A DNA stretch of 64,000 bases, from assembly GCA_021741205.1 (NCBI GenBank), contig JAIOYI010000005.1, forward strand, positions 1 through 64,000, given 5' to 3'. Both the position numbers and the translations under genes were made by a program. The stretch is from Emcibacter sp. (GTDB lineage: Bacteria; Pseudomonadota; Alphaproteobacteria; Sphingomonadales; Emcibacteraceae). Shown one piece after another: positions 47,764 to 50,804 of the stretch (the first letter of the stretch is position 1; the number at the start of each line of letters is the position of its first letter). The notes below the pieces were generated by a model. It saw only the letters and a list, made by a program, of their open reading frames with translations, did not search any database and had not been told where the DNA came from.

Positions 47764-47841
47764 GGCGGGTGTAGCTCAGTTGGTTAGAGCACCAGATTGT
47801 GATTCTGGGTGTCGCCGGTTCGATCCCGGTCACTCGCCCCA
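47764..47841 (+). tRNA. tRNA-His (GTG)
   Basis: Complete cloverleaf: acceptor GCGGGTG/CACTCGC, an encoded extra G at -1 (47764) facing C73, anticodon GTG at 47799-47801, T-loop TTCGATC, and encoded CCA at 47839-47841. The G at -1 is the identity element for HisRS. Confidence 0.97.
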
Positions 47842-47879: not shown

Positions 47880-48281
47880 TTACTCTGTACTTTGATTTTT
47901 TAAAGTGCTTTCGATATGCTGTAAAAGTTTGATAGAGGCCTCTCCTTCTCCTTTTAATTTATTGTTCAAGACCGTATCAAGACTGCCGAGAAAAAGCCTA
48001 TTGATGTTATTATTAACTTGTGTTTTTTGCTGTATTTCAAGATGTCTTTTAAACCAACCTGAAATTTCGGTGATAAGGGGCCAGCCAAATGTGCCAGCCT
48101 GGCTGTGAATACGGTGGCACAGATGAATGGCATCTATAATGCAACCAGATTCTATGTGTTGTTTTAAGGAATGAATGTCCTGTTTCAAAACATTCTCATA
48201 ACCCACACTCGCCTTATCAATGATGCTTTGTGCTCGAACAAGCATTTCTTTTTGTTTTAAGATAAATTCATTTTTGGACAT
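47880..48281 (-). CDS. Hpt phosphotransfer protein
   Basis: 133 residues, all helical. The motif LCHRIHSQAGTFGW resembles the Hpt signature (HxLKGSAGxxG), with H56 as the probable phosphorylated residue. Its ATG follows the response-regulator stop with no gap, so the two are coupled. Likely shuttles phosphate between the kinase and regulator encoded upstream, or on to a protein outside the window. Confidence 0.8.
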   Translation of the reverse strand: MSKNEFILKQKEMLVRAQSIIDKASVGYENVLKQDIHSLKQHIESGCIIDAIHLCHRIHSQAGTFGWPLITEISGWFKRHLEIQQKTQVNNNINRLFLGSLDTVLNNKLKGEGEASIKLLQHIESTLKNQSTE

Positions 48282-48824
48282 TTAAGGGGTTTCCTCGTCT
48301 ACATCATTCACCTTATTACTCGGTTCAAAAACAGGAGAATTGGTCTGACGTTTTTCATTATCTTTAGCGATCATTTTTATTCGGCGTCTTCTGTCGGGTC
48401 CAAAATAATGGTCTGTTATGACAAAATTTCTTGGATTGAATAAGGCATTATGTAGTTTTTCCATGATCTGGTCAGGGGAAATAGGTTTTGCTAAGATTTC
48501 GGTGACGCCAGCATCCCTTGCTTTAACAATGGACTGAAAACCCGTAAAGGCGGTGCAGAGAATAATGGGGATATATTGTATTTTATCATCTTGTGAATGG
48601 CGAATATACTGAGCCAGTGTTAAACCATTTTCCTCGCTCAACATATTATCAACAAAGACGCAGTGATATTTATAATTATTTAATTTGATGATCGCTTCTT
48701 CATTGGTTGTTACAAGCGTGACATGAGGCACGTCGAAAGCCTCTAGAATAGCTCGGATTATTTTTGCGATATAAATATCATTATCAACGATTAAGATATT
48801 TTTATTGTTAAATTTTTTTTTAAT
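48282..48824 (-). CDS. Response regulator (receiver) with apparent ATT start codon
   Basis: 180 residues if translation starts at ATT 48824-48822. No ATG, GTG or TTG lies upstream of 48731 in this frame, yet the frame encodes a complete receiver N-terminus (KNILIVDNDIYIAKIIRAIL) in that extra part. AAAGGAAG is placed 6 nt before the ATT. Starting at GTG 48731 would delete the first strand and the acidic pocket (D14, D16). Phosphoacceptor D59 in HCVFVDNML; switch Thr and Lys (CTAF, AKPIS) are present. After residue 150 follows a basic, then acidic tail of unknown role. No output domain. Lies between a NIT-type kinase and an Hpt gene. Confidence 0.78.
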   Translation of the reverse strand: MKKKFNNKNILIVDNDIYIAKIIRAILEAFDVPHVTLVTTNEEAIIKLNNYKYHCVFVDNMLSEENGLTLAQYIRHSQDDKIQYIPIILCTAFTGFQSIVKARDAGVTEILAKPISPDQIMEKLHNALFNPRNFVITDHYFGPDRRRRIKMIAKDNEKRQTNSPVFEPSNKVNDVDEETP

Positions 48825-48854
48825 TTATGGCTTCCTTTAGTCTTGGGCTGAAAC

Positions 48855-50804
48855 TTAACCATTAATATTAATATCCATACTCACACGTTCGACGGGGAAA
48901 TAAAGGGTTACTGTTGTGCCAGAACCTAAAGTACTTTCGATTTCAATTTTTCCGCCATGTTGTTCCACCAGTGAATTGGCAATGGGCAGGCCAAGGCCGA
49001 TACCATCATGGGTTCTGGCGTAACCTGTTTCCTTTTGGTTAAATATCTTAAATGATTCCTTTATCTCCTTTTCGTTCATGCCGATACCTGTATCCTTAAA
49101 CGAGATAATTAAGCCGCTATGAACGGAAAATGATGTATCAAGTGTAATTTTTCCTTTTTTCGGCGTGAATTTAAAGGCATTAGACAGCAAATGCATGAAA
49201 ACCTGTTCTATTTTTTTCTTATCGGCTCTGAACCATAGGTCTGCTTCAGGAAAACGATTGATCAGAGATATTTCTTTTGCATCATATTTTTTCGTTGTGT
49301 ACGCTATACTATGTTCAAGTATTTTGCGTAATGAAAATGTTTTTTCTTTTAAGGAAAAAACCTTGGTCTCAATCTGTGACATATTGAGAATTTCATTCAC
49401 TAGATCCAAAAGATGACGGCCAGAATCCTGAATATAATCAATATATTCAATATTTTCTTCGACTTTTTTTTCTTTGTTTAAGGCTAAAACTTCTGAAAAT
49501 CCTATTATAGCATTTAGAGGAGTTCTAAGTTCATGGCTCATATTGGCGATAAAATTACCTTTCGCAACATCTGCGGCTTCTGCATTTTTTCGGGCTTTGC
49601 GCAAACTTTCTTTTTGCCGGTAAAGGGTGATCAACATTTGGTTAAAATTTTTGCTGAGGTAGCCAATTTCATTGGGTTCATTCATATAAGGAATATTATC
49701 GATCATTGCTGATATTTTTTTATTTTCATGACTTAATTCGCGCATGATGGTTTCAATATCACGCAAGGGCCGTGATATGCTGAGTGCAATTTTGAGGGAG
49801 ACCATAACTGAAAAAAGAAGCAAAAAGAGTGATATTACAGAGACAATTATGATCTGATTTTTCTTTTCAGTATTATTATCTTGGGTTTGTTTGATAATGT
49901 CCGCAATCAATAATTTTTCTATATCGTTCATTATGTTGATTTTGGTGGATAATAAATTATACCATTCTACACCTGATATGGCATTTTTGAGCTCATTGAG
50001 TTTGCTTGCGGTAATGAATTGTTTTATTTCCTTAATTCTTATATTTTCTGAGCTATTTTGCATATCTTGTATTGCTTGACTATGGTTTGTGGAACTGGTC
50101 CCCATAAAAAGATCTCGGAATGTGTTGACCTTTGCAATTTGCAATAAAAAAATGTGATGTTGGATTTCACTAAAATTTTGATCAAAACCGCCTGATCCCA
50201 AAGCACGTTCAATACCAGTATTTTCTTTCCACAGTAAAAAATATTTATAGGATATGAGTGACCTACTTATTTGTGGCGTAGTGGCCCACCAATTTAAGTC
50301 ATCGATAATATTGATATAGCGGTCTATAATCCCTGAATAGGTTTGAAGGGCAGTCATTGCATCGGTTTGGGATATTGTTACTGCGAGGCGTATTTGATTT
50401 AATATTTCAATCTGTTCGGCGGCAATATTTTGGGTGGTGAAATGATTAATATTTTTAAAATCTGAATTGATATAGAGGTGATCTTTAATTTTTACTAAGG
50501 CGGCGATATTTTGATCTGTTTCTAATATTTTTTCTTTTAAAATTTTATCAAAGCATGCTTTATTTTCGGACAGTAAATATCCTGTAACAGCGCCTCTTTC
50601 CGCCTGAAGGGTATGAATGCTATGGCTTAAGATTGGTAAATAGCTAATATTTTCTTTAAGGATAGCGTTTTGCCTATATTCATTATAGCCTTTATAAATA
50701 TAACTTCCCCCTATAAGAAGGGTTCCCACCAAAAAAATGGTGATAAGTAAAAATAGCCTGTTCTTTATGGTAAGTGATTTCAACATATTGACATGGTAAC
50801 TCAT
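48855..50804 (-). CDS. Membrane histidine kinase with NIT-like (nitrate/nitrite) sensor
   Basis: 649 residues. TM1 about 16-37, periplasmic helical sensor 40-315, TM2 317-341, HAMP 342-396, HisKA with H424 in [17 protein letters not shown], HATPase_c to the end. The sensor carries the NIT-domain marks LQAERGAVTGYLLSE (67-81) and WKENTGIERALGSGGFDQ (192-209). NIT domains respond to nitrate or nitrite in characterised proteins. Followed by a receiver and an Hpt gene in one operon. The glnBA operon nearby makes a nitrogen-related signal attractive, but this is inference. Confidence 0.88.
   Translation of the reverse strand: MSYHVNMLKSLTIKNRLFLLITIFLVGTLLIGGSYIYKGYNEYRQNAILKENISYLPILSHSIHTLQAERGAVTGYLLSENKACFDKILKEKILETDQNIAALVKIKDHLYINSDFKNINHFTTQNIAAEQIEILNQIRLAVTISQTDAMTALQTYSGIIDRYINIIDDLNWWATTPQISRSLISYKYFLLWKENTGIERALGSGGFDQNFSEIQHHIFLLQIAKVNTFRDLFMGTSSTNHSQAIQDMQNSSENIRIKEIKQFITASKLNELKNAISGVEWYNLLSTKINIMNDIEKLLIADIIKQTQDNNTEKKNQIIIVSVISLFLLLFSVMVSLKIALSISRPLRDIETIMRELSHENKKISAMIDNIPYMNEPNEIGYLSKNFNQMLITLYRQKESLRKARKNAEAADVAKGNFIANMSHELRTPLNAIIGFSEVLALNKEKKVEENIEYIDYIQDSGRHLLDLVNEILNMSQIETKVFSLKEKTFSLRKILEHSIAYTTKKYDAKEISLINRFPEADLWFRADKKKIEQVFMHLLSNAFKFTPKKGKITLDTSFSVHSGLIISFKDTGIGMNEKEIKESFKIFNQKETGYARTHDGIGLGLPIANSLVEQHGGKIEIESTLGSGTTVTLYFPVERVSMDINING

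Follow-up and report, generated by a model that had tools for sequence, protein, structure and literature searches.

In an Emcibacter genome (G000), the frame that encodes a receiver-only response regulator opens on ATT, and the question is whether translation genuinely begins at this near-cognate codon or at a usual start codon farther into the gene. The locus lies in the window, that is, the whole stretch of 64,000 nucleotides analysed here (contig JAIOYI010000005.1, positions 1 to 64,000). The start region contains the following features, in window coordinates.

48285 to 48824, minus strand: coding sequence of the receiver-only response regulator, 180 codons read from ATT, with its TAA stop at 48284-48282
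48822 to 48824, minus strand: ATT start codon, the sole near-cognate start between the upstream TAA and strand 1 of the receiver
48825 to 48827, minus strand: in-frame TAA immediately 5' of ATT, which rules out any start farther upstream
48831 to 48838, minus strand: Shine-Dalgarno-like AAAGGAAG, 6 nt from ATT, duplex with the anti-Shine-Dalgarno sequence of -4.9 kcal/mol
48813 to 48821, minus strand: run of nine A (Lys-Lys-Lys) directly 3' of the start codon; the orthologues do not conserve it
48729 to 48731, minus strand: GTG, the first canonical in-frame codon (codon 32) and the rival start, with AGAGG upstream

The start region and the receiver domain

The original prediction, which proposed initiation at ATT, described the start region accurately. 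The frame of the full receiver follows a stop codon and has ATT as its sole initiator, TAA 48827-48825 directly preceding ATT 48824; on the minus strand the order is TAA, then ATT, AAA AAA AAA TTT AAC AAT AAA AAT ATC. Both AAAGGAAG, 6 nt before ATT, and the nine-A run directly after it are present where they had been placed (48838-48831 and 48821-48813, respectively). Between TAA 48827-48825 and GTG 48731 no in-frame ATG, GTG or TTG occurs, and the Shine-Dalgarno duplex of the ATT start is above the median for ATG genes in the same genome.

The regulator frame gives a complete receiver domain only when it is read from ATT 48824. The product of this reading covers positions 1-110 of the 111 in the Pfam Response_reg profile (PF00072) at 70.8 bits, and for the product read from GTG 48731 the match shrinks to profile positions 24-110 (52.9 bits). 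The best PDB sequence matches mostly start at query residues 6-10. In the AlphaFold2 model of the ATT-started product, strand 1 is formed by residues 9-13, and five strand/helix pairs make up the full alternating fold; strand 1 and helix 1 are predicted with confidence, block pLDDT being 88-90 across residues 11-60. Residues D14, D59, T91 and K113 of the receiver are invariant in the orthologue alignment. It had been stated that a start at GTG 48731 would remove strand 1 and the acidic pocket; strand 1 and the pocket residue D14 are indeed lost, but the second position of the acidic pair is asparagine here (N15, in VDND), and aspartate in the other ATT/ATC orthologues, such that the description of the pocket needs amending.

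Conservation of the start codon

Searches of related whole genomes yielded ten orthologues in the genus, including that of the present genome, and more in the family. Among the ten, the codon aligned with the start is ATT in five (G000, G008, G004, G011 and G015) and ATC in two (G005 and G007), and the remaining three carry a canonical codon (ATG in G001 and G013, GTG in G010); G010 and G013 are the congeners with the most complete genomes. None of the seven ATT/ATC genes has an in-frame ATG, GTG or TTG between the preceding stop and the ATT or ATC. The original prediction would have been undermined by relatives bearing ATG at this place and a sequence error here; instead, seven genomes share ATT or ATC with no upstream alternative. 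An ATG misread as ATT in sequencing or assembly would require a single changed base, and the genomes are drafts, but ATT or ATC at the same codon in the genomes of seven separate species leaves this explanation with a negligible likelihood. Judged from the aligned genes, the start codon is neither a sequencing error nor the quirk of a single strain.

The first downstream canonical codon in the seven ATT/ATC genes falls at codons 13, 23, 23, 29, 32, 48 and 48, a scatter that leaves these orthologues with no alternative start in common. Orthologues outside the genus offer ATG, or occasionally TTG or GTG, at the start, and the near-cognate start is thus a trait of this genus. The species that contribute the ATT/ATC genes are separated by ∼52-60% protein identity, and their silent sites are largely saturated. 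A tree of the regulator and the Hpt-like protein encoded downstream of it (see below) was too weakly resolved for counting origins, and no single clean origin was seen.

Selection on the N-terminal codons and the ribosome-binding site

The N-terminal region was compared among the seven ATT/ATC genes over codons 2-22, a stretch that contains no canonical codon in all but one of the seven (in G011, codon 13 is GTG). Differences at codon positions 1, 2 and 3 amounted to 0.21, 0.23 and 0.49, much like the values of 0.27, 0.18 and 0.56 for codons 23-120, and the 60 nt upstream of the start (0.68, 0.68 and 0.61) displayed no coding-like periodicity. Between G008 and G011, codons 2-22 differ by nine synonymous and no non-synonymous changes. 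The third-position excess, together with the exclusively synonymous changes in this pair, indicates that the N-terminus is translated and matters. Shine-Dalgarno-like sites, located about 6-9 nt upstream, precede all seven ATT/ATC starts, with duplex energies of -4.3 to -7.1 kcal/mol as compared with a median of -4.0 kcal/mol for the ATG genes of the present genome.

These data bear directly on GTG 48731 as the start, in which case the receiver would be truncated, lacking strand 1, helix 1 and the acidic pair, and the upstream codons would be a relic or a product of chance. This GTG has AGAGG 8 nt upstream (duplex -5.8 kcal/mol), and a gene caller restricted to ATG, GTG and TTG would choose it. 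The strong amino-acid constraint on the N-terminal codons argues against it, however, as does the absence of the GTG from most relatives, in which it is not conserved as a start; their first canonical codons lie at 13, 23, 29 and 48 and offer no shared alternative to ATT. Initiation at GTG 48731 is therefore considered very unlikely.

Genomic neighbourhood

The regulator is flanked on its own strand by two genes, as follows.

48855 to 50804, minus strand: histidine kinase of the NIT-HAMP-HisKA-HATPase_c type, 30 nt upstream of the regulator
47880 to 48281, minus strand: Hpt-like partner, whose ATG abuts the regulator stop (TAAATG)

The pair of regulator and Hpt-like gene is present in ten related loci, that is, in every locus examined, and in most of them the ATG of the Hpt-like gene adjoins the regulator stop (as TAAATG or TGAATG), an arrangement that suggests translational coupling of the two. 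The Pfam Hpt match of the downstream gene is weak (16.1 bits here versus a cut-off of 24.6); one orthologue (L037) passes the cut-off with 25.5 bits, and the others fall below it or have no match. Just past the Hpt-like gene, but encoded on the other strand, is a gene for tRNA-His (window 47765-47841, plus strand); this tRNA gene was the only hit when Rfam was scanned for a leader element.

None of the ten related loci contains an orthologue of the kinase at the corresponding place, and the NIT-domain kinase upstream of the regulator may be a recent insertion. In G008, G011, G005, G007 and G001 the gene 5' of the regulator is divergent and the regulator heads its own unit, which indicates that the start is independent of any upstream cistron and of frameshifting from one. 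The frame could otherwise be entered by slippage on the nine-A run, which the original prediction had regarded as possible, or by a frameshift from the kinase gene, and the nine A residues right after ATT and the kinase stop only 30 nt upstream lend this idea some appeal. The A-run, however, is missing from the other six ATT/ATC orthologues and is unneeded for reaching the frame; no ATG occurs between the kinase stop and the A-run; and at least five relatives have no same-strand gene just upstream of the regulator. Entry by slippage or frameshift is accordingly rated as highly improbable, and the slippage proposal was set aside.

Other unusual starts in the genome

Coding-like sequence upstream of the first ATG, GTG or TTG was scored for each of the 2063 genes of the genome (2.57 Mb, 42% G+C). 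The N-terminal extension of the regulator ranks third of the 2063, below infC and the prfB frameshift; these top two entries represent two established types of recoding, which the scan thus detected, with the regulator ranked beside them. The genes with unusual starts or recoding, in addition to the regulator, are listed below (contig coordinates of G000).

C9:56575-57111, plus strand (and loci L050 to L059): infC, ATA start
C6:261674-262744, minus strand: prfB, with the programmed +1 frameshift site typical of this gene (AGGAGGCATCTTTGAC)
C2:49004-50023, minus strand: thiL, apparent CTG start preceded by TAGGAGC; ATG or TTG in congeners
C6:259913-261226, plus strand: M23-type peptidase, ATA ATT after AAAGGAAAAGA, with no usual start before the conserved N-terminus

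The infC gene lacks a usual start throughout the genus, the present genome included, and opens on ATA after AGGAGGAA / AGGAGGAAGTTAA. On sequence grounds, thiL and the M23-type peptidase gene appear to be further cases of near-cognate starts. Several congeners carry ATA ATT or ACA ATT at the peptidase start, but in most relatives a TTG or GTG is close by as well, which weakens the case for a second conserved ATT start and leaves it only suggestive. In total, about four of the 2063 genes have apparent near-cognate starts, a frequency of the same order as in Listeria, where six fixed non-canonical starts were reported in 2265 conserved genes (PMC13068326).

Proposed explanation and comparison with known systems

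The AUU/AUC start itself is well shown by the reading frame, the conservation of the codon, the ribosome-binding site, the selection on the N-terminus and the ATA-started gene for IF3. The regulator thereby joins an already known class of AUU/AUC-started genes. AUU, AUA and AUC starts are known to initiate poorly, since the complexes formed on them are destabilised by IF3, as in the autocontrol of infC and in pcnB of E. coli (cited in PMC5559785 and PMC5601948). Authentic initiation of this infC/pcnB class, at a codon that is probably selected and that would yield a scarce, probably IF3-dependent regulator, is judged to be very likely the correct explanation. The Shine-Dalgarno site about 6-9 nt upstream would direct the ribosome to AUU (AUC in two species), and the mismatched start codon would lower initiation through the proof-reading of IF3, such that the regulator would be made in small amounts; the Hpt-like protein would probably be limited alongside it through translational coupling. 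We infer the low yield, the IF3 sensitivity, the coupling and the purpose, which would be to limit a signalling component and maintain its ratio, from these patterns and from the precedents below. The original prediction had likewise expected low or IF3-sensitive expression, a sound expectation in view of infC, pcnB, sigR and the cases from S. aureus and Listeria.

The three orthologues of ten with ATG or GTG count against this explanation, in that AUU cannot be indispensable. They also favour an alternative in which the AUU start is genuine but has arisen by tolerated drift, the machinery of the lineage accepting near-cognate codons and little product being needed. The near-cognate starts that seem to occur elsewhere in the genome (CTG in thiL, ATA/ATT in the M23-type peptidase gene) point the same way. 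In contrast, ATT or ATC has been kept in seven species despite the ∼52-60% identity and the largely saturated silent sites, and only about four such genes are found among 2063. Drift of this kind is possible rather than probable, and continues to be a reasonable rival inasmuch as the tree cannot tell how often the codon changed.

An extension of the selected-codon explanation, in which the receiver and Hpt module is tied to the state of initiation because AUU/AUC-dependent synthesis follows the level of IF3, is more tentative and is thought rather doubtful; if it held, the set-point of the module would change with growth or with the state of the ribosome.

The closest precedents differ in informative ways. 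The infC gene likewise combines a near-cognate AUN start (ATA in this genus) with a good Shine-Dalgarno site and conservation among relatives, but encodes another product and is autoregulated by its own protein, whereas IF3 control of the regulator would act in trans. In E. coli pcnB, an AUU start is described as keeping the protein scarce (Binns and Masters 2002, as cited in PMC5601948 and PMC13009471); this protein is an enzyme rather than a signalling regulator, and the effect was experimentally tested. The GTC start of Streptomyces sigR was shown experimentally to be repressed by IF3, and a usual codon in its place unbalances the sigma/anti-sigma pair (PMC5472188). Like the present gene, sigR is a regulator that heads a coupled pair and has a genus-wide non-canonical start (GTC in 32 of 34 cases, GTT in two; PMC5472188); it differs in codon class, in the nature of the pair and in the experimental basis of its IF3 control. 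In S. aureus, the starts of ccpN (AUA) and cvfC1 (AUU) give about 10% of the AUG yield (PMC13009471). These, too, are conserved non-canonical starts on regulators or possible regulators (PMC13009471), but have long, extended Shine-Dalgarno sites as opposed to the moderate one here. For Listeria rsbW, yield decreases in the order ATG>ATA>ATT (PMC13068326).

No response regulator with an AUU start was found in the open-access literature searched. Apart from infC, few bacterial genes are known in which a near-cognate start is retained from species to species. Such genes are truncated when a gene caller accepts no starts but ATG, GTG and TTG, and in the present case strand 1 of the receiver would be removed. 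The seven natural ATT/ATC alleles and the three with ATG or GTG provide material for asking whether the codon sets the protein ratio.

Further features of the regulator

No output domain was recognised in the regulator, which shares this feature, the receiver fold and, except for the asparagine at the second acidic position, the active-site residues with receiver-only regulators of the CheY/DivK type. It differs from them in the adjacent Hpt-like gene and in a tail with an invariant GPDRRRR motif. The asparagine at residue 15 may alter the phosphorylation chemistry. The codon for this residue occupies window 48782-48780 (minus strand), and another genus of the family has mostly Ser or Asn there (VDSN, VDNN). 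The GPDRRRR motif lies past the receiver, at window 48401-48381 (minus strand), and is unchanged in all of the genus orthologues.
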